DNA from: a virus
Length of the DNA stretch: 42,453 bases
IMG/VR virus record: IMGVR_UViG_3300009551_000075
Span: 1-42,453 of that record
Reading direction: 5' to 3' (one strand)
How positions within the stretch are numbered: the stretch's first letter is position 1; every line of letters starts with the position of its first letter. Below the pieces are notes generated by a model, which saw nothing but the letters and a program-made list of their open reading frames with translations, made no database searches and had not been told where the DNA came from. This document shows positions 10,856-34,866 of the stretch, in pieces. Both the position numbers and the translations under genes were made by a program.

Positions 10856-10877
10856 ACACACACACACACACACACAC
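10856..10877. repeat. (AC)11 dinucleotide tract
   Basis: Eleven uninterrupted AC units are preceded by AAG and followed by GAA. No other tract of this kind occurs in the window. Confidence 0.95.
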
Positions 10878-13930: not shown

Positions 13931-14641
13931 TCATTTATTTACGAATTTAAATCCTGCTCTTTTTTCTATAATCTTTATGATATCTTTTTCTTCTTCAAAA
14001 GTCATAGCAACAGGACATAAAGAATTGTAACTCAAACCAGCAGCATTAGCAATTGATACTAATTTTGAACAACAATCTGAGCAATGATCAGAAAGAATAC
14101 CATCTGATTCATCAAATTCACATTTTCCACAACCATCTCTATAGATAGATAACCATGTGTTCTTTAATTCATTTTCTGAATATCTAACGGTTGGTGGATT
14201 TTTCAATCTTCCCTTAATCTCCATGAACATCTTGTGATATTTGGCAATTCTTTTAGTGTCCTTTTCAGTAATGCCTTTAAGTCTGCGGATATCACTGTTA
14301 TGACGTAAATCACAAAGTTTCACAAGCATAGCATCCTTGTTTGAACAGATCCTGATCATAACTTCATCTTGAGTTTCACCAGGAACTTTCGTCATGTGCT
14401 TAATACCGGCAATGACACGATCACTGAAACCCAAATCTTTCAGTTCCTGATAGGTAGTATCTGTGTCCTCTATAAGGTCATGACCCAAAGCAATGCATTG
14501 AAGTTCTTCATCATCTGTCCTTAAATAATGCATCACCTTCAAAGGATGGAGGATGTATGGAACACCACCACGATCATATTGACCATGATGCTTGTTAGTA
14601 GCTAAAACCAACATCTTAGAAAGCATTTCTCCCCTTTCCAT
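13931..14641 (-). CDS. SpoT/MESH1-like HD-domain hydrolase
   Basis: The N-terminal 130 residues carry the (p)ppGpp hydrolase signature: KHHGQYDRGGVPYILHPLKV (about 17-36), then the catalytic ALGHDLIEDTDTTY (about 51-64) and a downstream KLCDLRHN (about 108-115). Enzymes with this domain remove the 3' pyrophosphate from (p)ppGpp, and a phage copy would dampen the stringent response. The synthetase and regulatory domains of SpoT are absent. A C-terminal region (about 165-195) has six cysteines (CGKCEF, HCSDCC) that may bind metal, unusual for small hydrolases. Tight RBS AGGAGG. Confidence 0.8.
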   Translation of the reverse strand: MERGEMLSKMLVLATNKHHGQYDRGGVPYILHPLKVMHYLRTDDEELQCIALGHDLIEDTDTTYQELKDLGFSDRVIAGIKHMTKVPGETQDEVMIRICSNKDAMLVKLCDLRHNSDIRRLKGITEKDTKRIAKYHKMFMEIKGRLKNPPTVRYSENELKNTWLSIYRDGCGKCEFDESDGILSDHCSDCCSKLVSIANAAGLSYNSLCPVAMTFEEEKDIIKIIEKRAGFKFVNK

Positions 14642-15963: not shown

Positions 15964-16392
15964 TTATCTCCCATGAAGTGTAGAACGAATTTCCATAATC
16001 AGACGACCAAGATGATTTTGACCCTCGCCTTTACAGACACCCCAAAAGGTATCTCCCCACCAATTACCTTCTATAATCTCCATATCACCTGTAGAAATCA
16101 ATAAGTCTGTTAAATGAGTGTTTGTAAATTTTTGAATCAACAAACTCCTCATAACTTCCATCTTAAGACCTTCCCAATCTTCACGTATGACTAAACCTCT
16201 ACCTAGCCTCTTAGCGACAGCAGCGGAAACGGATTGTCTCTGAAACATTTTCCTAGTTTCTAAATCTAGAGTTTTTGCCGCTTGATATGCATGTTCAACA
16301 GTTGAATAAACCTCATCAGATAACCAAACTGGTGAAGGCCAGAAGTTACTGAGCCAACGATACTCACCTACAAAAGCAGTTATCTTATCCAT
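15964..16392 (-). CDS. NADAR (YbiA-like) protein
   Basis: The 142 residues form a complete NADAR domain: EYRWLSNFWPSPVWL (about 10-24), the signature YSTVEHAYQAAKT (29-41), AKRLGRGLVIREDWEGLK (60-77), LLISTGDMEIIEGNWWGDTF and WGVCKGEGQNHLG. The family includes the YbiA/RibX N-glycosidase and enzymes reported to remove ADP-ribose from guanosine in nucleic acids. Pairing with an ADP-ribosyltransferase-like gene two cistrons away suggests it reverses or counters ADP-ribosylation in this phage or its host. The RBS is AGGGGATAGGAA. Confidence 0.87.
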   Translation of the reverse strand: MDKITAFVGEYRWLSNFWPSPVWLSDEVYSTVEHAYQAAKTLDLETRKMFQRQSVSAAVAKRLGRGLVIREDWEGLKMEVMRSLLIQKFTNTHLTDLLISTGDMEIIEGNWWGDTFWGVCKGEGQNHLGRLIMEIRSTLHGR

Positions 16393-17866: not shown

Positions 17867-18127
17867 ATGGCATATTCTACAAATCTTTTCCAGCATGATC
17901 CAGATAAACAACTCTTTATTGGATATGCTAAAGATCTATCTTTTAAGATAGACAATATTCCTACAATACTAAAAATCAGATCAGAAAAAACAGGAAATGT
18001 TGCAAGATTTATATTTTGTAGTGTACTAGATAATGTAGGTTGTTGGACATACAGAATAAGTTCTGCAGATTTTAAACATTATCCTGGTTTGCTCTCATAT
18101 CAAATCTATATCAAAAATGATTTATAG
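17867..18127 (+). CDS. SxKTG-family paralogue 1 (86 aa, plus strand)
   Basis: A member of the tandem family found in this region. Shared landmarks are KQLFI (14-18) before a short variable segment, SEKTGNVARF (39-48), Trp60 in a WTYR stretch, and the end YPGLLSYQIYIKND. The pattern of alternating hydrophobics suggests an all-beta fold, with no signal peptide or membrane segment. Function unknown. It is the first of three plus-strand genes and has no RBS. Its stop overlaps the next gene by 11 bases. Confidence 0.78.
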   Translation: MAYSTNLFQHDPDKQLFIGYAKDLSFKIDNIPTILKIRSEKTGNVARFIFCSVLDNVGCWTYRISSADFKHYPGLLSYQIYIKNDL

Positions 18128-18440
18128 AGTTTCACAATTTGAACATAGCAAAGAAAAGAAGAGATTCTATATAGAAGCTTCTAAATTGAATTGGACCAAG
18201 GATACAATCATTCCATTGAAAATTATAATTCAATCAGATAGATCCAAAAACACGGTTATATTTGATTTTTCTTATATTATTCACAATCCTGCTTATATGA
18301 AACGAGCACCAATTGCATTTTGGTTCTATATTCCAAGTAAACAATCCATTCAATCATTTCCTGGTCTCAAAGAATATGCATTAAATGTTCACAATAATAT
18401 TGGTTATATAAGATTGAATACCAATGATCAAACATCTTAA
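18117..18440 (+). CDS. SxKTG-family paralogue 2 (107 aa, plus strand)
   Basis: The family core appears as SDRSKNTVIF (40-49), with KKRFYIEASKL upstream, FWFYIPS (68-74) and FPGLKEYALNVHN (81-93). It is the longest plus-strand member because of a tail beyond the usual end. Its ATG lies within the Asn-Asp codons (AATGAT) that end paralogue 1. Function unknown. Confidence 0.78.
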   Translation: MIYRVSQFEHSKEKKRFYIEASKLNWTKDTIIPLKIIIQSDRSKNTVIFDFSYIIHNPAYMKRAPIAFWFYIPSKQSIQSFPGLKEYALNVHNNIGYIRLNTNDQTS

Positions 18441-18699
18441 AGCATCGCAATTCATTCATAACAAACATGATAAATTGTTTATCTGTGAAAATGTAGATGA
18501 AGTATTTTTGAATGAAGAGACGTGTTCTGTAGAATATCCAACATACATCAATATAATTTCTGACAAAACCAAAAGAACAGCAATTTTCAGATTTATAGAT
18601 GTTCTGACAACATATAGTGTCTATGAAATAGAGAAGATTTCTTCTGAAAGAGTTCCTGAATTGTTAGGATATAGAATTTATATTAGAAATTTAACTTAA
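18424..18699 (+). CDS. SxKTG-family paralogue 3 (91 aa, plus strand)
   Basis: The core reads SDKTKRTAIF (46-55), preceded by KHDKLFICENVDEVFL and ended by VPELLGYRIYIRN. Its start lies 17 bases inside paralogue 2, again in an AATGAT codon pair. It is the last plus-strand gene; a weak stem-loop (18728-18757) follows. Function unknown. Confidence 0.78.
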   Translation: MIKHLKASQFIHNKHDKLFICENVDEVFLNEETCSVEYPTYINIISDKTKRTAIFRFIDVLTTYSVYEIEKISSERVPELLGYRIYIRNLT

Positions 18700-18727
18700 A
18701 CTTCTCTTTTGAGCATTCTTGAGGGAG

Positions 18728-18757
18728 AAGGAATTTCCGGATTGAGATGAATTCCTT
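18728..18757 (+). terminator. Weak stem-loop after the plus-strand trio
   Basis: AAGGAATT pairs with AATTCCTT around a 14-base loop. There is no U-run, so it is only a candidate end for the plus-strand transcript. Confidence 0.3.
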
Positions 18758-18807
18758 AAGTCCTTGAAACTTTGGTGTATTATCTGATTTCCATATGCAA
18801 AAAGAAA

Positions 18808-18833
18808 GGGGAGAACTAACTAAAGTTCTCCCC
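18808..18833 (-). terminator. Rho-independent terminator after the exported N/Q/G-rich gene
   Basis: A 10-bp perfect stem (GGGGAGAACT with AGTTCTCCCC) and 6-base loop are followed on the minus strand by TTTCTTTTTG. Confidence 0.85.
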
Positions 18834-18855
18834 AATCTCTTACCTTTGTGGTGAT

Positions 18856-19755
18856 TTACTTAGAAAGAGCTGCCTTCATCAAACGCTCATCACGTTCACT
18901 TAGAATCTTGCGCAGTTCATCACGAGTAACATTATTGTCTGCTTTAGACTCTTCCTTAACCACTGGAGCACAAGTCACACCAGCAGCCTTGAAAGCATCT
19001 GCAGCACCCTTAACATTAGCTAGCACATATTGACAACCAGCCTGTTGATTGAACTCAGCAATCAAGTGTGCATTCTTGATGACTTCGCAATTCTTGTCTC
19101 TCTTAGTTCCACCCAGTGATACTCCCAAGAAAGAAGTCTGTGCACCACCAGAAACTGAACCCAAGCAGGTATCAATGCCTGAAGTCAACCCAGGAGCATA
19201 TGCTGTATTCACAGGAATCTTGGCTGCCTTATAAACAACACTATCACCCTGAACAGTCACAGCTGTGGTATTACCAGAAGCTGTATTAGTTGAACTGTTG
19301 TCAGAATTATTAGAATTGTTACCATTGTTGGAAGCTTCAGAAACAGACTCAGATTGAGTCTTGGTTGTGATAGTATTCTTCAAAACAGAAGAACCACCCA
19401 AAGCAACAGCTTGTTGTTCCTGTCCTTGACCTTGTGTTTGACCCTGGCCTTGAGAATTGCTGTTGAAATTAGCATTTAAATTGTCATTGGTGTTTTTGTT
19501 CTGATTAGTATTTCTAACATTGGCTTCACTAGAAGCCAATCCCAAACCAATTCCTACACCAACGCCAGTTGCATTGGAAGAAGAATCAGAATTGGACTGT
19601 CCACCACCAGAATTGTTATCACATGGAGAATTGTGATTTCCTACTCCATTACATTGTGTATTGTTATGCTCACCACCTGCTCCTGTTGCCATGGCTGCAC
19701 TGGATAGTGCCAGCATAATAGCAGTAAGGAACCCACGACAAATTGAACTATTCAT
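18856..19755 (-). CDS. Exported Asn/Gln/Gly-rich conserved phage protein (299 aa)
   Basis: A signal peptide (MNSSICRGFLTAIMLALSSA, about to residue 24) precedes a low-complexity Asn/Ser/Gln/Gly region (about 25-155, with the QGQGQTQGQGQEQQ stretch). A conserved C-terminal domain follows with NTAYAPGLTSGIDTCLGSVS, GVSLGGTKRDKNC and four to six cysteines likely in disulphides. The same C-terminal block occurs in hypothetical proteins of other phages; its job is unknown. Start ATG 19755 has AAGGAG four bases upstream, and the promoter at 19798-19826 rules out the longer frame. Confidence 0.78.
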   Translation of the reverse strand: MNSSICRGFLTAIMLALSSAAMATGAGGEHNNTQCNGVGNHNSPCDNNSGGGQSNSDSSSNATGVGVGIGLGLASSEANVRNTNQNKNTNDNLNANFNSNSQGQGQTQGQGQEQQAVALGGSSVLKNTITTKTQSESVSEASNNGNNSNNSDNSSTNTASGNTTAVTVQGDSVVYKAAKIPVNTAYAPGLTSGIDTCLGSVSGGAQTSFLGVSLGGTKRDKNCEVIKNAHLIAEFNQQAGCQYVLANVKGAADAFKAAGVTCAPVVKEESKADNNVTRDELRKILSERDERLMKAALSK

Positions 19756-19797
19756 ATAACTCCTTAAGAAATTGTTTAAAAAAATCGAACACATGAA

Positions 19798-19826
19798 ATG
19801 CTAATGAAAAATTACATAATAGTAAA
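19798..19826 (-). promoter_or_regulatory. Early-type promoter TTTACT-17-TAGCAT
   Basis: TTTACT (19826-19821) with a modest -10 TAGCAT (19803-19798), about 45 bases before ATG 19755. Confidence 0.5.
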
Positions 19827-19838
19827 GTGTTGTTTAAA

Positions 19839-20129
19839 TCATTTTTGATAAACTAACAATTTGTAATTGATTAACTGAGGATGTTTAAGATGATAGGGAG
19901 CCTCCAATTTATAAATCATGATTTGAAGTTCTGTATCTACACGATCTCTTTCAAACAAAACTTTATTTCCTGTGATATGAGACACTAGAAAGATACCATT
20001 AGGAAATTGTAAACATCCCATCTCTCTTAAAGAAGTCTTAAAACAATATCCTGGAATATGAAAAAGATCTTCTGTACTGAGTGTCTCTATGTAAAATTCA
20101 TCCAAGTAAGAAGTTAATTCTTTATCCAT
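19839..20129 (-). CDS. SxKTG-family paralogue 4 (96 aa)
   Basis: The core is SHITGNKVLF (50-59), with EDLFHIPGYCF before it and HPQLINYKLLVYQK at the end. I use ATG 20129 (MDKELTSYLDEFY) because it overlaps the upstream stop by 8 bases (ATGGATAA); a frame from 20174 would run deep into the neighbour. Function unknown. Confidence 0.75.
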   Translation of the reverse strand: MDKELTSYLDEFYIETLSTEDLFHIPGYCFKTSLREMGCLQFPNGIFLVSHITGNKVLFERDRVDTELQIMIYKLEAPYHLKHPQLINYKLLVYQK

Positions 20130-20475
20130 TAGATTTTGATCTTTTAGCATATTCCTTGATCTGTGTAGCTTCATCTATATCAAGATTGATATACTTCCAA
20201 TCTAGAGACTGAAGCAGAACAAATATCTCATGCAATCTTTTGGTGTTTATGTTTCTATCCCATAAACAAGGATAGAAGTGCTCTAGTCTTACTCTATTAG
20301 GATTAGGGAGTTGTAATTCTCCCAACCAAAATCTTTCCCATCTAGATTTAGAATAGTATTTCTTAGTATAATCTTCTAAACAATCCATGAATTCTTTTTC
20401 CATGGCTTTCAAGGCCAGAATAATATCTTTGCACCAATCATTTGCGTTATCTTTTGAAATGTATACAGATGCCAT
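20122..20475 (-). CDS. Hypothetical helical protein (117 aa)
   Basis: A soluble helical protein rich in Lys and aromatic residues (MEKEFMDCLEDYTKKYYSKS, SRWERFWLGELQLPNPNRVR). It does not show the SxKTG core and is not part of that family. AAGG lies eight bases before the ATG. Function not recognised. Confidence 0.65.
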   Translation of the reverse strand: MASVYISKDNANDWCKDIILALKAMEKEFMDCLEDYTKKYYSKSRWERFWLGELQLPNPNRVRLEHFYPCLWDRNINTKRLHEIFVLLQSLDWKYINLDIDEATQIKEYAKRSKSNG

Positions 20476-20478
20476 AAT

Positions 20479-20826
20479 TTATACCTTGTTAAAGAATGAG
20501 TCTACAATATCCTGCGAAAGCAAAGCTAATGGCCTAGAACCAATGATCTTCTTGTACATCATGGATACCAGGACCATATCATCCTTTCTTTTGAAAAGAT
20601 GCAGAAAATGATTTTGATCTAAATGAATATCTGATCCATAGAAACTGTTCTGACGAATGATATCTTCTGTAGTAGATGTTAATCTTACAGTAGGATGTAA
20701 CAGATAAGATGAACACAACCAGAGCTCTGAATTAGTTCTGGAATATTTTGAACTAGATTCTTCTTTAATTATACTAAAGATATCACCCAATTCTTTAACA
20801 TCTGGCATCAATAATTTAGATTTCAT
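20479..20826 (-). CDS. Hypothetical protein within the paralogue array (115 aa)
   Basis: The start ATG 20826 (MKSKLLMPDVKELGDIF) has GAGAGAAG just before it. The sequence contains EESSSKYSRTNSELWLCSSY and ends LSQDIVDSFFNKV. Neither the SxKTG core nor the P-G-L/W end of the array family is present. Function not recognised. Confidence 0.6.
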   Translation of the reverse strand: MKSKLLMPDVKELGDIFSIIKEESSSKYSRTNSELWLCSSYLLHPTVRLTSTTEDIIRQNSFYGSDIHLDQNHFLHLFKRKDDMVLVSMMYKKIIGSRPLALLSQDIVDSFFNKV

Positions 20827-20837
20827 TCTTCTCTCTT

Positions 20838-21175
20838 TCAATCAATTTTCTTGTGTAAGTTTTTGATGGGTGGTAATCCATCCCAAACATCATTAATCAG
20901 TCTAAGTTCCCAATCAGCCAATTCTGGGAATATAGTTTGATTTGAATGAAAAATCCATTGTTCAAAAACATGTTCATTCTGATAGAGAGAATCTTTCTTG
21001 TAAAAGATCGTTTTCCTATAAACACTACCACAGCACCAGTCTTGTGAGAAACTAATTCTATCTTTTCTAAATCTTTGCAAAAATCATAAGTTCCTAATTC
21101 TGATGCATTGATAGAAAATATCTTGTTCTCCTTGTCTATAGAACAAAGTCTTGTACTAAGAGCAAGAGATTTCAA
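20838..21175 (-). pseudogene. SxKTG-family paralogue 5, interrupted by a frameshift
   Basis: The 5' part reads LALSTRLCSIDKENKIFSIN and then IELVSHKTGAVVVFI (about 39-53) in one frame. The 3' part, with EHVFEQWIFHSNQTIFPELA followed by DWELRLIND, lies in another frame. Joining them at about 21010-21022, near TATAGGAAAACG, restores a complete family member of about 111 residues. This is a -1 type shift equivalent to one missing or extra A. Start TTG 21175 lies one base after the upstream stop. It may be a decayed gene, programmed slippage or a sequencing error. Confidence 0.7.
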
Positions 21176-21176
21176 T

Positions 21177-21434
21177 TTAATACTCTAAGAAACTTAAAGG
21201 CAAGGTCATGAGCCATTGTTTTCTCTCACCCTTGGGCTCATACACATGCACATCAGTCACTCCTTGTAACTTGTACAAGAGTCTTAGAATAGATAATTCA
21301 TTCCCTAACACATGCAATACATTGGGATAAATCTCTACCCCAACAGGAGATGCTGCAACAGCAGATAGAAATCTAGTCATTTGCTGTTCAGTATATTTTC
21401 TCTTCTGCGTTTGAAAGATCTTTAAGATGTTCAT
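21177..21434 (-). CDS. Hypothetical protein (85 aa)
   Basis: A soluble mixed-structure protein, MNILKIFQTQKRKYTEQQMT at the start and YKLQGVTDVHVYEPKGERKQ later. It is coupled to the gene upstream by an ATGA overlap. It has no SxKTG core. Function not recognised. Confidence 0.65.
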   Translation of the reverse strand: MNILKIFQTQKRKYTEQQMTRFLSAVAASPVGVEIYPNVLHVLGNELSILRLLYKLQGVTDVHVYEPKGERKQWLMTLPLSFLEY

Positions 21435-21655
21435 GATGTTTTATGTGGCTTAGAAATCCAAGCTCTAAAAGCCAACACTCCTGGTTGTATACAATAGGTG
21501 CCTTTGATGTTACGATTTGTATCTTGAGCAAACCACGCATTGCAAGATTCCACATAGTTGATCTTGTAGCAATAAATCTCACTGATCTCTTTCCACTTCT
21601 CTAGGGTCAAGAGATTGCTATAGATTTCACCATTTTGATCAAACTGAATTTTCAT
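21431..21655 (-). CDS. Hypothetical protein (74 aa)
   Basis: A soluble protein with several Tyr/Trp/Cys residues (EISEIYCYKINYVESCNAWF). Both ends overlap neighbours by ATGA. A frame inside it on the same strand (21388-21582) is a shadow. Function not recognised. Confidence 0.65.
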   Translation of the reverse strand: MKIQFDQNGEIYSNLLTLEKWKEISEIYCYKINYVESCNAWFAQDTNRNIKGTYCIQPGVLAFRAWISKPHKTS

Positions 21656-21933
21656 TTGTGCAACAACTCATGTAAACGGACCAATGTGCGATCTTGATTC
21701 TTGAATGTCAAAGCTTTAGCCACTGCTACCATTCCATTTGAAATGTCAGTGAAACGAACCAACTCACTCTTAGGAGTGGATTTCCTCATCTCACTTCCCT
21801 GTTGAGTGGCCATGGCGCACTCTGTGTAGTAATTGAACTTTTTGCTCAACCATTGCAACTCAGTGCGCACTCGATCTAATTCACTCTCCAGAGCAGCAAT
21901 CTTGGCAGTTTGTTCACTCATTCCAGTTACCAT
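21652..21933 (-). CDS. Coiled-coil protein (93 aa)
   Basis: Residues 8-32 (QTAKIAALESELDRVRTELQ) form a clear coiled coil; the remainder is helical. The start ATG 21933 has GGAG eight bases upstream and lies behind the promoter at 21964-21991; the longer frame to 21978 would begin upstream of the expected transcript start. It heads the unit 21933-19839. Function not recognised. Confidence 0.65.
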   Translation of the reverse strand: MVTGMSEQTAKIAALESELDRVRTELQWLSKKFNYYTECAMATQQGSEMRKSTPKSELVRFTDISNGMVAVAKALTFKNQDRTLVRLHELLHK

Positions 21934-21963
21934 GATATCTCTCCACAGAATTAGATTGAATGT

Positions 21964-21991
21964 ATAATATAGCAACAATTACAAAAGTAAA
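21964..21991 (-). promoter_or_regulatory. Early promoter TTTACT-16-TATTAT
   Basis: TTTACT (21991-21986) continues as TTTGTAATTGTT; the -10 is TATTAT (21969-21964). Confidence 0.65.
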
Positions 21992-22010
21992 GGGACAGAA
22001 CGTGAACTCG

Positions 22011-22301
22011 TTAACTGTTTAGAATGATAAGTTGCCAAGGTCGTAATGATGGATATAATGTGATGGTCTCTGTTAGAGGATGATAGATCCAAAGTTGTGT
22101 GGTGTAATTTGTGAAATTCTCTAAATGAGTGTGATACTTAAACAGCGCAATAGCGCCTGTTCTGTGTGATATAAGTTTGATAAATTCCGGAACATCCCAT
22201 TCTGCTGAGAATGCACTTTTAGTGCAAACAAACTCTTTAGATTGGTGAGAAACATGTCCCAAAAATCTACTATTCAAAGTAAACATAAGATGTCTATTCA
22301 T
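22011..22301 (-). CDS. SxKTG-family paralogue 6 (96 aa)
   Basis: The core is SHRTGAIALF (45-54), with KEFVCTKSAF upstream, LWIYHP (about 69-74) and YPSLRPWQLIILN at the end. The start overlaps the upstream stop by 8 bases in AATGAATAG. It is the last gene of its array block and precedes the promoter at 21964-21991. Function unknown. Confidence 0.78.
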   Translation of the reverse strand: MNRHLMFTLNSRFLGHVSHQSKEFVCTKSAFSAEWDVPEFIKLISHRTGAIALFKYHTHLENFTNYTTQLWIYHPLTETITLYPSLRPWQLIILNS

Positions 22302-22638
22302 TTAAGACCAATAGTTTCCAGTTTACCATGTCTAGATCTACTCTAGGATCTATCATATCATCAGAAGGAACAAACATCCAAAAGCAGATTACTCCATCTC
22401 TATCCAATTCAGGAAACTTGTAAACAAATTCTACCACAAAGCCAGTTTTGTGAGAAACTAATCTGATAGTCTTTGGAAAATCCCATGATGCAGAACCAGA
22501 ATGTTGTTTCAACTTACTCATCAACAAATAGAAATATTTGTTTCCTTTTTCAATTCTAAACAAATCAGTAGAACTGATGTAAACTAAATCTTTGAGTAAC
22601 ATTGAATGTATTGAAGATGGTATTGTCATATCATTCAT
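22294..22638 (-). CDS. SxKTG-family paralogue 7 (114 aa)
   Basis: It shows the family features most clearly: SSTDLFRIEKGNKYFYLLMS, then FPKTIRLVSHKTGFVVEFVY (54-73), FWMFVPS and VNWKLLVLNE. The N-terminal extension of about 20 residues is longer than in other members. Both ends overlap neighbours by 8 bases in AATGAA codon pairs. Function unknown. Confidence 0.8.
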   Translation of the reverse strand: MNDMTIPSSIHSMLLKDLVYISSTDLFRIEKGNKYFYLLMSKLKQHSGSASWDFPKTIRLVSHKTGFVVEFVYKFPELDRDGVICFWMFVPSDDMIDPRVDLDMVNWKLLVLNE

Positions 22639-22909
22639 TCAACAATTGCAATGTCCAGCCTGGTAGAATCTTGTTGGTGTAATTCCAGCAAAGTATCTCA
22701 TTGTATTGATTATCTACTTCACAATCATAGTAGAACTCTATCATTCTAGAGGTTCTTTTAGAAATCAAATGAATCTCTTCAGGAATCTGTGTGGGGAATG
22801 TTTTCTCTGAACCACCAGGAAAGACGCTCACTCTTGCAATGAACACCTTGTTATGATGATCAATCTGTTTAAGATACTCAGATGAAATGATGGCTAATTT
22901 GTTCTTCAT
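22631..22909 (-). CDS. SxKTG-family paralogue 8 (92 aa)
   Basis: The core is diverged to SKRTSRMIEFYY (50-61), preceded by KVFIARVSVF and IPEEIHLI, and it ends LPGWTLQLLNE. The ATG abuts the stop of the gene upstream. Function unknown. Confidence 0.78.
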   Translation of the reverse strand: MKNKLAIISSEYLKQIDHHNKVFIARVSVFPGGSEKTFPTQIPEEIHLISKRTSRMIEFYYDCEVDNQYNEILCWNYTNKILPGWTLQLLNE

Positions 22910-23200
22910 CTATCTATTCCAAATCTTTAGTTCCCATCCAGGAAGAATAGAGTATGGTCTAGATCTATAGAGAATATAATCTATTTCTTCTTTTTGAGTT
23001 TTCTTTGATATTTTCAATATTATTGACTCAAAATAGAATTCTAGAATTTGTTCCGTCTTGTTAGACACCAAATTTATTACTATAGATGGATCTACAAACC
23101 AATGCATGTTAGCTGCTAGTTTGCTTCTGTCTGTGATGAATAATTTCTCATCATGATAGATAGCAATCAGTTCAGATGTTAGAATGTTCATCTCAAACAT
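22910..23200 (-). CDS. SxKTG-family paralogue 9 (96 aa)
   Basis: KLFITDRSKL (19-28) leads to INLVSNKTEQILEFYF (42-57) and ends LPGWELKIWNR. An insertion rich in Lys and Ile lies between the core and the end. The start is one base after the upstream stop. Function unknown. Confidence 0.78.
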   Translation of the reverse strand: MFEMNILTSELIAIYHDEKLFITDRSKLAANMHWFVDPSIVINLVSNKTEQILEFYFESIILKISKKTQKEEIDYILYRSRPYSILPGWELKIWNR

Positions 23201-23201
23201 C

Positions 23202-23540
23202 TCAAGATTTCAAGATCTTCAAACAATATTTCTTAAGTTCAGGATATTTCTCTTCATGTCTAGGAATGGGTCTATAGACAGACCAATTAGCAACACTGTG
23301 AGATTCCATTTTAGAGAAAATAGCCCGCATGCCTGTCTTGGCACTCTCTAGTTCTACAAAATGAGGGAACACGTCATCATCCACAAAATCATTTAGATGA
23401 CCTGTGAACAGTTTGATCTTTGCATCATGTATCAATTTAGATGTCAGAACAACCATAGATGCAGCTGATTTTAGAGATTCTGCAAAATCATCTTCTTCCT
23501 CAGAACCTATATCTATGTTGGCTGAATCTATAGTTTTCAT
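23202..23540 (-). CDS. SxKTG-family paralogue 10 (112 aa)
   Basis: An acidic N-terminal extension (IDIGSEEEDDFAESL) precedes KIKLFTGHL, then FVELESAKTGMRAIF (61-75), WSVYRPIPR and YPELKKYCLKILKS. Its start overlaps the upstream gene by 4 bases (ATGA). Function unknown. Confidence 0.78.
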   Translation of the reverse strand: MKTIDSANIDIGSEEEDDFAESLKSAASMVVLTSKLIHDAKIKLFTGHLNDFVDDDVFPHFVELESAKTGMRAIFSKMESHSVANWSVYRPIPRHEEKYPELKKYCLKILKS

Positions 23541-23869
23541 GATTTCTCAATCTCCAATCTCCAATCACTCATGTGAGGAGCTGTACATATTACAAGATCT
23601 TTATCAAATGGCACAAAGACCCATTTCCTCGTATTTTGTAAATCATAAGGATGTCTCGCAAACAAAGTCTCATGATAGTAGAATGTGATAATTTGAAGAG
23701 TCCTCATAGATTGTAATTGAATCATCAAGACTTCATCTAATTGAGAAGGAAGAATCTTGAGTCTAGATAAACTAGACAAAAACAATTTCTCCTCATGGGA
23801 TATGGTAAATTGGATGGTCGATAATGCCCATGTAGATTGTTTCTCAAAATTATCCTTTGCCTTGATCAT
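23537..23869 (-). CDS. SxKTG-family paralogue 11, divergent (110 aa)
   Basis: The overall layout is kept (HEEKLFLSSLSRL at 25-37, KWVFVPF and SDWRLEIEKS near the end), but the core has become QSMRTLQIITFYY (53-65). It is the first gene of the minus-strand array, next to 23872. Function unknown. Confidence 0.72.
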   Translation of the reverse strand: MIKAKDNFEKQSTWALSTIQFTISHEEKLFLSSLSRLKILPSQLDEVLMIQLQSMRTLQIITFYYHETLFARHPYDLQNTRKWVFVPFDKDLVICTAPHMSDWRLEIEKS

Positions 23870-24307: not shown

Positions 24308-24853
24308 TTACAATGGTTTCTTCATCTTTCTAGTGGGAAATTGATTGAACACTTTCCCAAGCTTGCTGACATTCACTATCATCTGAGTCTTCCATGTTTC
24401 CTGAATTCCATCTTCTTTGGTGACATGCAGGAAAGAGTAATCCCAAACATGAGAACCTTCTAATGTGGCCGAAGTCACTGGACCAATCTTTACATTGAGT
24501 TTCTGTACAAATGCCAAATATTGTGCTGCAGCATTCTCTTTGGTTTCCTTAATGAAATGTTGACATTTCACAGGATTTATTGTGCAACGATGAATAACCC
24601 CAGGAATGTTAGATCGAGTTGATTCACACCAACTAACTAATGATTGCACTAAGTGATATCTAGCTAAAGCTAAGTTATAGGCAATGCCAGAAAGACCTGA
24701 GCTATAGGAAGGATAAGGTGCAATCTTTCTATCCTGCCAATCATTAGCCTCTAATTCCTTACGTATATTTTCAATAGTAGCTAAAGCATACTCTTCAGCA
24801 TGTTTGATAGCCTGTTCTTTGAGAGGTAAAACTGCTTGTTCAATAAGATTCAT
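24308..24853 (-). CDS. Conserved phage hypothetical (181 aa)
   Basis: A soluble protein with a helical N-terminal half (KEQAIKHAEEYALATIENIR; SGIAYNLALARYHLVQSLVS) and a C-terminal block, GSHVWDYSFLHVTKEDGIQE then TWKTQMIVNVSKLGKVFNQF, that I recognise as conserved among phage and bacterial hypotheticals of unknown role. A GGGAGAG RBS and the early promoter at 24884-24912 lie upstream. Confidence 0.7.
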   Translation of the reverse strand: MNLIEQAVLPLKEQAIKHAEEYALATIENIRKELEANDWQDRKIAPYPSYSSGLSGIAYNLALARYHLVQSLVSWCESTRSNIPGVIHRCTINPVKCQHFIKETKENAAAQYLAFVQKLNVKIGPVTSATLEGSHVWDYSFLHVTKEDGIQETWKTQMIVNVSKLGKVFNQFPTRKMKKPL

Positions 24854-24883: not shown

Positions 24884-24912
24884 AGTATACCTTCTAACAA
24901 TTACAAAAGCTA
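24884..24912 (-). promoter_or_regulatory. Early promoter TAGCTT-17-TATACT
   Basis: TAGCTT (24912-24907) continues as TTGTAATTGTT; the -10 is TATACT (24889-24884), about 30 bases before ATG 24853. Confidence 0.7.
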
Positions 24913-24917
24913 GTCTC

Positions 24918-25927: not shown

Positions 25928-25956
25928 ATTATAATGGTTTACAATTACAAAAGCTA
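25928..25956 (-). promoter_or_regulatory. Early promoter TAGCTT-17-TATAAT
   Basis: TAGCTT (25956-25951) continues as TTGTAATTGT; the -10 is a consensus TATAAT (25933-25928). The T of the TAG stop of the upstream gene begins the -35 box. Confidence 0.75.
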
Positions 25957-28059: not shown

Positions 28060-28725
28060 TTATATGGTATCTTCTTCCTTGTCATTACATCCATTGTCAC
28101 AATCTGCTCCTTGATATCTCAAATGATCTCCACATACAACACACTCTGGTTTGTCCAGTTCATTCTCAGATTCTTCAATATCATTCTTCATCTTTGCAAT
28201 AACATTCTTCTTTTTCTTAGGATTCTTTCTGTCTCTCTTGCGGAAGACTCTTCCTTGCTTCCACCCATCTGGAATAGGTTCTCCAGGAATATGTACTTTA
28301 TCAGTGATTCCATTGTTTATCCATGTGGTACCAGACTTTACTGTACTAATCTTTTGTTTTGTTTCTTCTGGTAACACTTTCCCTGTCTGCGCTTCACTCA
28401 TCTTTCTTTTGGTCTCATCGGACAAAGTATAACCAGGCACTACTTCCCATTTAATGTTGTAATAGATCTCAGACTCATACACTTCAGGAGTTAACAATTT
28501 CTCAAGAAAATGTTCAGCTTGTACTTCATCAGGGAATGCATGAATTGCTTGCAGATAAAATGCATCTCTGGAATATTTCTGCAAATCTGACATCAATTCA
28601 TCATTTGTACCAATAAAAGGATCAGAATAATGCTCTGTTCCATAAAATAAGTCATTTGTTTTATGTTTTCCATAAAACATTCTTCTATTCACCACACAAA
28701 ACACTCTAAACACTACATGAAACAT
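28060..28725 (-). CDS. Homing-endonuclease-like protein with NUMOD3 and cysteine tail
   Basis: The N-terminal 90 residues (FRVFCVVNRRMFYGKHKTND ... ESEIYYNIK) resemble the degenerate GIY-YIG type found in phage mobile genes, in which Y-x-G-K-H-K-T-N-D follows the first strand. Then come two NUMOD3-like DNA-binding motifs (LSDETKRKMSEAQTGK and LPEETKQKISTVKSG), a WINNGITDKVHIPGEPIPDG stretch and a basic segment. The C-terminus has CVVCGDHLRYQGADCDNGC, a likely zinc knuckle. It would nick or cut DNA and spread itself into phages lacking it. Activity is uncertain because key residues are altered. Confidence 0.68.
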   Translation of the reverse strand: MFHVVFRVFCVVNRRMFYGKHKTNDLFYGTEHYSDPFIGTNDELMSDLQKYSRDAFYLQAIHAFPDEVQAEHFLEKLLTPEVYESEIYYNIKWEVVPGYTLSDETKRKMSEAQTGKVLPEETKQKISTVKSGTTWINNGITDKVHIPGEPIPDGWKQGRVFRKRDRKNPKKKKNVIAKMKNDIEESENELDKPECVVCGDHLRYQGADCDNGCNDKEEDTI

Positions 28726-32750: not shown

Positions 32751-34273
32751 TTAAAGACTGGTTGAGCAGATAACCAAGCAAACAACCACAGTGTAGAGGT
32801 AGTATCATCATGATATCCTTCTTCAGCTTGATATTGTTTAGTTTTACTTAAAACAAAGGTAGAAAGCTCTGATACAATATCAAAATCATTTAAAATGATT
32901 TGATCATTTTCTATTAGAGTCTTGAGCTTAACACATCCTTGTGTTTTGACCTTTTTAGTAGTTTTCACGCCAGGAATTTTTGCCTTAGAAGCTTGAGTTA
33001 CTGTAACTTCTTGCAATTCACCTGTCATAGAGAAAAAGCAATTCTCATATTCTAAATCACTAATCAATTGATGTAGAACTGTTCCGCCAATGTCATTGTT
33101 TTCTATAATTACATATGCATTGTTATAATGTTGTGCTGCCAGATAGATATAATTAGCAAAAATAGTATCATCTACAGTATTGTCTCTAAATTTAGCCGCT
33201 ACTCTCCAAGGTGCTGTAGTAACATCAAAAATTGTGAATGATGAATAGTCTAATCCTTTACCTTGAGATGGATCACCAGATAGGACATAAGAATGATCTT
33301 TAAGAGGTTCTTCGTAGATAGACATTCTATCATCAAAGAGCATCTTTGAAGGTGAAATGAATGCCAATTCTCTAAGTTTCTTACCACTGATCAATGTATT
33401 GCTAGATCCTAGGAATTCGCATAAGACTTCTTGGTTGAACTTACGTTCCCCTAAGATCTTCAATTGTTGATCTGCCCAGGCCTGATCACGACCAGGAACA
33501 TCTTGCCATCTTGCTTCAATAGCCTTAAAACTATTCCAATTCTTAGGATCTTTTTTCTCCTTCATCGCATCTTCCCAGAATTTGTAAAATAGATTTAGTC
33601 CATTAGGGGTAGATGTCATAATGATCTTAGAAGATTTACCAGAAGAGATAGTTGGGAACACGGATGTGAAGAAATCTTCTGCAATATTACCGGGTACGTG
33701 AGCAAATTCATCCAGATATAAGAAGTTCAATGTGAATCCACGGATTGCTCCTGAAGAGGTAGCTTCACAAAGAATTCTGCAACCATTTTCAAGAGTAATG
33801 GATGATTTATTCCATTCTTCAACACCTTGTTGCATGAATAAAGGTAGGTGTTGATAAGCAATCTGAATACGATTTAGAATTTCATTAGCAGTCTTTTCTT
33901 TTTGAGCCAAGATACCTACATTTTTATGTTCTTGGAATAAAACATAGTGTAGAATATATCCTACAGTGATGGTAGTTTTTCCCGCTTGTCTGGGGCATCG
34001 AAAGATAACGAAACGATTATTATGATAAGTTTCAATAACTTCCTTTTGAAAATCCCAAAGTTTAATATCTGTTAGACCAGCATCTAGTGTAATGACTTTG
34101 ACATAGTGTTCAATAAAATATGTGGGATCTGCTTGACATAACATATATTCCTTGACTTGCTCATTAGTCCAAGGAACCTTTACTCCGACTTTCTTAAGTC
34201 TAGGATTATTCATGAAGGCATATGGATTTTCCTTTTCTTTCTGCCTTACTTGTTTTGCTTTCTTATGTGACAT
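32747..34273 (-). CDS. 17: Terminase large subunit gp17 (508 aa before the in-frame TAA)
   Basis: The ATPase-nuclease motor that packages DNA. ATPase motifs are Walker A RCPRQAGKTT (92-101), Walker B LYLDE (185-189) and coupling motif MTSTPNG (219-225). The nuclease domain has LSGDPSQGKGLDYSSF (331-346), VIIENNDIGG (388-397) and GYHDD near 488. T4 gp17 has 610 residues; here the frame ends at FK followed by TAA, with a further 65 codons in the same frame. A homing endonuclease gene ends on its ATG (TAATG). Confidence 0.95.
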   Translation of the reverse strand: MSHKKAKQVRQKEKENPYAFMNNPRLKKVGVKVPWTNEQVKEYMLCQADPTYFIEHYVKVITLDAGLTDIKLWDFQKEVIETYHNNRFVIFRCPRQAGKTTITVGYILHYVLFQEHKNVGILAQKEKTANEILNRIQIAYQHLPLFMQQGVEEWNKSSITLENGCRILCEATSSGAIRGFTLNFLYLDEFAHVPGNIAEDFFTSVFPTISSGKSSKIIMTSTPNGLNLFYKFWEDAMKEKKDPKNWNSFKAIEARWQDVPGRDQAWADQQLKILGERKFNQEVLCEFLGSSNTLISGKKLRELAFISPSKMLFDDRMSIYEEPLKDHSYVLSGDPSQGKGLDYSSFTIFDVTTAPWRVAAKFRDNTVDDTIFANYIYLAAQHYNNAYVIIENNDIGGTVLHQLISDLEYENCFFSMTGELQEVTVTQASKAKIPGVKTTKKVKTQGCVKLKTLIENDQIILNDFDIVSELSTFVLSKTKQYQAEEGYHDDTTSTLWLFAWLSAQPVFK

Positions 34274-34839
34274 TAATTCTTTTTCTTTTGATTAATCAAT
34301 AACATTTGATTTCTTCTTCTAATTCTATCTTCTTCTGTTATTGTAACTTTCAATCCTTTCAAACCTTTATTCCAGGTTTGCATTCCCTTTAATCCTATGT
34401 TCCAAGGTTTACTACCCTTCTTAAATTTTGTCTTTTTACTTCCTTCTGGAAAAAGTCTACCCAATTTGAATCCTTGAGATGGAATTCCTTTAAACATTTT
34501 CTCTTCTGTACCGTTATTATACCATTTTGATTTTTCGTTTGGATTGTGATGTTCTCCACCATATGTAATATTGTAACCATTATTAACAGAATCAAAATGT
34601 TTAATGAAATATTCTTCCATAATATTTAGACAATGATCCTTATCTTTAGAAGTGTAAATTTCCTCTATTCTAAATGATTCTTTACCATGTTTTCTAATAG
34701 CATTATGAATCTTCAGGTTAGAACCATTATTGGTATCAGAGATATGACCATACCATCTATCTTTAATATTTTGTATAGTAAAACCTATGTAAATCTTGTT
34801 ATTTTTTATATTCGTAATTTTATAGATTCTAGATAACAT
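34273..34839 (-). CDS. GIY-YIG homing endonuclease
   Basis: The N-terminal 90 residues are a GIY-YIG nuclease: SRIYKITNIKNNKIYIGFT (3-21), RWYGH (28-32), IRKHGKESFRIEEIY, the catalytic-type Glu in MEEYFIKHF and NNGYNITYGGE. The remainder has the WYNNGTEEKMFKGIPSQGFK motif and two NUMOD3-like repeats (GSKPWNIGLKG and QTWNKGLKG). Free-standing enzymes of this kind insert beside conserved phage genes. It lies between genes 16 and 17, and its stop overlaps the terminase start. ATG 34839 is preferred to the TTG at 34842. Confidence 0.88.
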   Translation of the reverse strand: MLSRIYKITNIKNNKIYIGFTIQNIKDRWYGHISDTNNGSNLKIHNAIRKHGKESFRIEEIYTSKDKDHCLNIMEEYFIKHFDSVNNGYNITYGGEHHNPNEKSKWYNNGTEEKMFKGIPSQGFKLGRLFPEGSKKTKFKKGSKPWNIGLKGMQTWNKGLKGLKVTITEEDRIRRRNQMLLINQKKKN

Positions 34840-34866
34840 CAATTACATCCTGCTGCTTATGGGATG

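Follow-up and report, generated by a model that had tools for sequence, protein, structure and literature searches.

A dispersed array of at least eleven diverged paralogues of an unnamed protein family in a T4-like phage

Eleven frames of common descent

The virus record IMGVR_UViG_3300009551_000075 of IMG/VR, whose 42,453 bases were analyzed in full (the window), carries at positions 17867-23869 eleven small open reading frames (ORFs), numbered W1 to W11 in Table 1, that encode members of one protein family. The array lies in a small-gene region between the tail-sheath and large-terminase modules of the window, and because the record is a fragment, eleven copies is a minimum. A profile built from all eleven members and run against the 366 ORFs of the window returned each member with E ≤ 3.4e-20, the only other match below 0.01 being the C-terminal half of the frameshifted W5. 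Since such a profile contains its own targets, leave-one-out profiles were also built from the other ten members. These recovered every held-out member (11/11), with E values from 1.9e-5 (W4) to 8.4e-17 (W6), whereas the best score among 200 shuffles of each member did not exceed 8.7 bits. Pairwise identity among the members is 14-38%, with a median of 23%. The eleven frames therefore share common descent, and they are, as an initial annotation of this DNA had claimed, a single family that is old or fast-diverging, with members that align far above the random level it had named as a refutation. The same annotation had listed eleven places, and a frame was found at each, with two adjustments: W5 begins at 21175, split over two ORFs, and W4 likely starts at the ATG at 20126, with a ATGGATAA overlap with the upstream gene, rather than at 20174. 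For the frameshift in W5, assembly error, pseudogene and real frameshift are indistinguishable here.

The alignment displays a common layout, in which a KLF-like strand and S-x-L are followed by a variable stretch, then hxhxS-x-K-T-G, xxxxF, W-x-Y/F and an end resembling L-x-x-W/Y-x-L-x-I-x-N. Across 18 homologues, the near-invariant core residues are the serine (18/18), the threonine (17/18) and the phenylalanine (17/18). The SxKTG core of the initial annotation thus stands for its S and T, with the F to be added, while K and G are merely common. The six-residue SxKTGx segment has a constant length in all 18 homologues and the lowest entropy of any segment (1.52 bits; the C-terminal N-D has 1.78 and the other segments 2.2-2.8). 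Among the stretches measured, length varies in the loop before strand 3 (11-36 residues), the strand 4-5 hairpin (7-18) and the stretch before the last strand (8-16). The core serine is encoded by AGT in W10 and by TCN in the other ten, so that the residue is retained across the AGY and TCN codon classes. The motif alone is not diagnostic, as a DNA pattern for SHKTGxxxxF found 119 stretches in viral contigs, none of which held a family member by profile.

Table 1. Members of the array and associated features (positions in the window; E, leave-one-out E value unless stated otherwise; aa, amino acids)
Feature	Position	Strand	Remarks
W1	17867..18127	+	86 aa, core SEKTG; E 2.3e-15; structure modelled
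W2	18117..18440	+	107 aa, core SDRSK; E 2.5e-16; 11-base overlap with W1
W3	18424..18699	+	91 aa, core SDKTK; E 6.8e-12; 17-base overlap with W2
W4	19839..20174	-	core SHITG; E 1.9e-5, the weakest member
W5	20838..21175	-	split by frameshift; SHKTG half in ORF 20897-21175, E 3.2e-9 for that half
W5, C-terminal half (WELRLIND)	ORF 20838-21080	-	E 0.0015 in the all-member profile (matched as ORF 20841-21083)
Small protein gene adjoining the array	21652..21978	-	orthologue G002:68997-69275, 33% identity, E 6e-6
Promoter-like element TTTACTTTTGTAATTGTT...TATATTATAC	21960..21991	-	heads the run from 21978 to 19839, including W5 and W4; 18-nt exact repeat with 17821-17804
W6	22011..22301	-	96 aa, core SHRTG; E 8.4e-17
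W7	22294..22638	-	114 aa, core SHKTG; E 2e-13; structure modelled
W8	22631..22909	-	92 aa, core SKRTS; E 2.1e-12
W9	22910..23200	-	96 aa, core SNKTE; E 4.3e-10
W10	23202..23540	-	112 aa, core SAKTG; E 1.3e-8
W11	23537..23869	-	110 aa, core SMRTL; E 2.2e-11
Promoter-like element CTAGCTTTTGTAATTGTT...TATACT	24884..24913	-	heads the gene run from 24853 to 22011, including W11-W6; 14-nt exact repeat

Predicted fold, relatives and copy number

Two members were modelled from different alignments: W1 from the eleven-member alignment (predicted local distance difference test, pLDDT, 93) and W7 from an alignment of window and IMG/VR sequences (pLDDT 81). Both models retrieved the same eight viral matches in BFVD with a probability of 1.00, followed by a clear drop, so that the structure comparison proposed in the initial annotation gives one fold for the two. 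The eight include proteins of Rhizobium phage RHph_Y68 and Agrobacterium jumbo phage Atu_ph07, and five of them, from uncultured phages, carry neighbouring accessions and could stem from a single multi-copy phage. When the W1 model was compared with the PDB by Foldseek under a criterion of E < 0.001, the best match had E 0.58, and the template modelling (TM) score to the query was at most about 0.37 among the matches listed. Judged by these models, the members have a predicted fold in common, for which no solved relative was detected, the PDB comparison being that of W1 only. The proteins are predicted to be mostly beta strand, soluble and about 80-115 residues long. The strand order and topology of the W1 model would place the SxKTG turn at one end of the hairpins and the first two variable loops at their opposite end. 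Resemblance to the levivirus coat fold was rejected, as its matches were partial beta-hairpins with a TM score to the query of about 0.35 and E above 0.3.

Searches of Pfam, PHROGs, NCBIfam, PADLOC and the PDB gave nothing above a curated cut-off or clear across several members, the best matches involving one or two members at E 0.003-0.02, in line with the initial annotation, which had assigned the family no known function. The occluded RRM was set aside because it matched one member, the frameshifted W5, at E 0.0084 and with 16.4 bits versus a Pfam cut-off of 30. Resemblances to the OB-fold stress protein, DPS and PADLOC candidates were likewise confined to one or two members or to partial matches.

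Relatives were found in phages of rhizobia. A profile of window members only matches Sinorhizobium phage Phosso (E 1.1e-7 and 3.5e-5) and RHph_Y68 (QIG68051, E 1.5e-6), and tblastn from these phage proteins reaches RL2RES, AF3, P10VF, RL38J1, RHph_N34, OLIVR5/6, IC12 and other rhizobial phages. The extended profile also matches Atu_ph07 (402107-402367), and the rhizobial homologues score E 4e-17 to 6e-29 with profile A6, which contains them. The named homologues, besides QIG68051, are gp90c of Agrobacterium phage OLIVR5, RL2RES_022 and XYS97756 of Phosso. They belong to the same family by profile, and RHph_Y68 and Atu_ph07 share the predicted fold through BFVD. In contrast to the window, the rhizobial phages have one copy per genome (two in Phosso) and no array. 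In other phages the homologues are surrounded by small genes without annotation, in the vicinity of tRNA genes or of genes for nucleotide and sugar enzymes, and are found outside the structural modules. No member was detected in T4, phiM12 or Cr30 with the extended profile. Scans of viral contigs for patterns taken from single members and from three alignments either yielded no relatives or were limited by an alignment without a sufficiently conserved stretch, a genome-contig scan with the rhizobial homologues found none, and tblastn of phage records with W1, W2 and the copy of the near relative G002 returned nothing credible; one tblastn match of W6 to a phage record (E 0.08) was not confirmed by profile. 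By these sequence comparisons the family is a rare, unnamed and apparently new phage protein family, all homologues being annotated as hypothetical.

The window encodes T4-type scaffold, protease, portal, sheath, terminase and head-closure proteins, and its terminase has relatives, at less than 50% identity, in T4-like phages of cyanobacteria, Pelagibacter, Methylophilales and others. Related viral contigs were gathered by portal, terminase and sheath scans, the long near relatives being G002 (176,865 bases, portal 71% identical) and G001 (125,827 bases, portal 74%). G002 has one family copy (68438-68704), about 300 bases from 68997-69275, in a syntenic position beside the orthologue of the small gene that borders the array. 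No copy was found in G001 in a full-sensitivity profile search of all ORFs, one was found in a shorter relative (terminase 60%), and none in the remaining T4-like contigs that were searched, which are more distant and in many cases short fragments. Copy number thus varies among related phages, as the initial annotation had proposed to check: eleven in the window versus one and none in the long near relatives. A tree of 19 sequences places the window copies on the same side of a branch in 75% of bootstraps and groups W1-W3, the three plus-strand members, at 87/88. Since G002 has one copy and G001 none, the array is likely a lineage-specific expansion in which a single ancestral accessory gene gave rise to eleven or more copies. 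This is the simplest reading, with loss in the relatives as the alternative. Two short contigs of sample 3300025924 (L030, L076) show 100% identity in the portal and terminase stretches that were aligned and represent the same virus in a second record; neither reaches the array.

Gene runs, promoter-like elements and neighbouring genes

The genes of W6-W11 and of W1-W3 overlap or abut, which makes co-transcription of each set likely and translational coupling possible. Three copies of the 14-nt CTTTTGTAATTGTT are present in the window, on the minus strand only, ahead of the genes at 24853, 21978 and 17731, and each copy is followed by a TATA-type -10. In 50 Markov simulations, no 14-mer occurred three times in any. 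Two weaker copies lie at 25953 and 26165. In addition, CTAGCTTTTGTAAT is found exactly three times on the minus strand (24913-24900, 25957-25944, 26169-26156), each time ahead of a small gene. These sites, together with those at 21991 and 17821, appear to form a phage-specific promoter-like class in the small-gene region, which may serve as early promoters. W1-W3 have no copy of the element of their own. The T4-type late promoter TATAAATA has one site in the window, and promoter classes are inseparable by it.

A NADAR-domain protein (Pfam PF08719, E 7.1e-23) is encoded at 15964-16392 (-), 1.5 kb from the array, and G002 encodes an orthologue with 50% identity. As NADARs reverse guanine ADP-ribosylation, this protein may counter DarT-type defence. 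Positions 28060-28725 and 34273-34842 (-) encode two homing endonucleases (phrog_314), the second gene immediately preceding that of the large terminase. In T6, anti-defence loci undergo segmental amplification that is promoted by the homing endonuclease SegB (PMC13096335), and by analogy homing endonucleases are a possible origin of the array expansion. Between the plus- and minus-strand members, positions 18856-19794 (-) encode a 312-residue protein (phrog_20531) that probably has a signal sequence and contains a long stretch rich in N/Q/G/S. Outside the array are a gene for an HD-type metal-dependent phosphohydrolase at 13931-14641 (-; phrog_990, E 8e-57; Pfam HD_4 below cut-off), whose product shares 67% identity with a G002 protein over 148 residues, and an AC dinucleotide run of about 22 bases at 10856-10877.

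Possible functions and comparison with known systems

We tentatively favour, as a reading that falls somewhat short of probable, that the copies are early, stoichiometric binders of host proteins, perhaps defence proteins, which diversified after duplication. A single accessory gene would have been duplicated locally to at least eleven copies, and these would be produced together early in infection. Every copy would adopt one scaffold, which has the fixed SxKTG hairpin turn at one end and carries the length-variable loops at the opposite end, and would block a host protein of its own, or its own variant of one, through stoichiometric binding. Host defence proteins would be the most likely targets, since selection of this kind accounts best for copies that arose by duplication and then diverged rapidly. 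What puts counter-defence ahead is the shared promoter-like element, together with the location in accessory regions of several phages, the fast divergence with an intact core and the nearby NADAR gene. The initial annotation had suggested binders of many partners, such as antagonists of host defence, and the promoter-like element, the fixed turn with variable loops, the expansion and the NADAR gene are compatible with this suggestion without demonstrating it. The further idea of a new small scaffold used as a repertoire, with a constant SxKTG end and a variable loop end that sets the target, giving ten or more differently aimed inhibitors of host proteins on one fold, is doubtful.

Several points weigh against early binders of host proteins. 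No homologue of known function was found. Variable loops are to be expected in any family that evolves fast and are no proof of binding. The best PADLOC match had E 0.0032 and concerned single members, in a library that holds defence rather than anti-defence proteins. Net charges range from -8 to +7 with no common sign, and hence without a shared DNA-mimic signature, and the branches of the tree are long, with low or modest support.

The proteins could instead act in host takeover or regulation by binding nucleic acid or the transcription and translation machinery, their divergence reflecting sub-functions in one process. We consider this possible, if on the unlikely side: the small-gene location behind a shared promoter-like element would suit it, as would the weak occluded RRM match, but that match is well below its cut-off and concerns the single frameshifted member, the spread of net charges gives no shared nucleic-acid signature, and no PDB fold match was obtained for W1. 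Rapid divergence and co-transcription would also fit a role between phages, with the copies as antidotes or exclusion proteins that counter the variable effectors of rival phages or mobile elements. Polymorphic toxins offer a parallel in their strings of immunity genes that are paralogous but not identical, such as the twelve esaG copies of one S. aureus strain (PMC9484751). However, no cognate effector family was found beside the single-copy homologues, and we regard this role as unlikely.

Mostly non-adaptive duplication, with the copies as drifting and decaying relics of local amplification, would account for the frameshift in W5, and T4-like phages amplify segments readily (PMC9391042, PMC13096335). 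It is nevertheless improbable, given that ten of the eleven frames are intact at such low identity and that the core S, T and F are retained, the serine in two codon classes. Least probable of all are minor virion or assembly components, either decorating the particle or acting as chaperones for different structural parts. The position between the sheath and terminase modules would agree with such a role, but homologues in other phages occupy non-structural accessory regions, no convincing fold match to a structural protein was seen, and the gene is missing from most T4-like relatives searched, which means that the shared particle can do without it.

In viruses, an array of diverged paralogues is often the sign of a front in the conflict with the host, and here such an array is found in a T4-like phage, with a predicted fold that has no solved relative. 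If the copies do aim at different partners, they would show a phage building an inhibitor repertoire from one scaffold and would provide many natural baits for unknown host targets. The single-copy homologues in cultured rhizobial phages (RHph_Y68, RL2RES, OLIVR5, Phosso) make the function testable now.

Three known systems resemble the array in part. The esaG strings of Staphylococcus aureus likewise consist of tandem paralogues that differ from one another and are thought to match partners that vary (PMC9484751), but esaG provides bacterial immunity to the type VII secretion system and has conserved DNA blocks that recombine, whereas DNA-level repeats between copies of the array are nearly gone. 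Segmental amplification of the anti-defence gene tifA in T4 (PMC9391042) is a comparable gain of copies of a small counter-defence gene by a T4-like phage; its copies are recent tandem repeats for dosage, whereas those of the array are strongly diverged. AcrID1 has a known function in archaeal viruses, and no relation in sequence or fold was found here, without direct alignment to AcrID1. Its homologues are duplicated at the termini of Sulfolobus rudiviruses (SIRV2 and relatives) as small, strongly diverged paralogues in one virus, with early genes under one common regulatory sequence (PMC11065993); in the window, the promoter-like element stands ahead of both minus-strand runs and is absent ahead of W1-W3.

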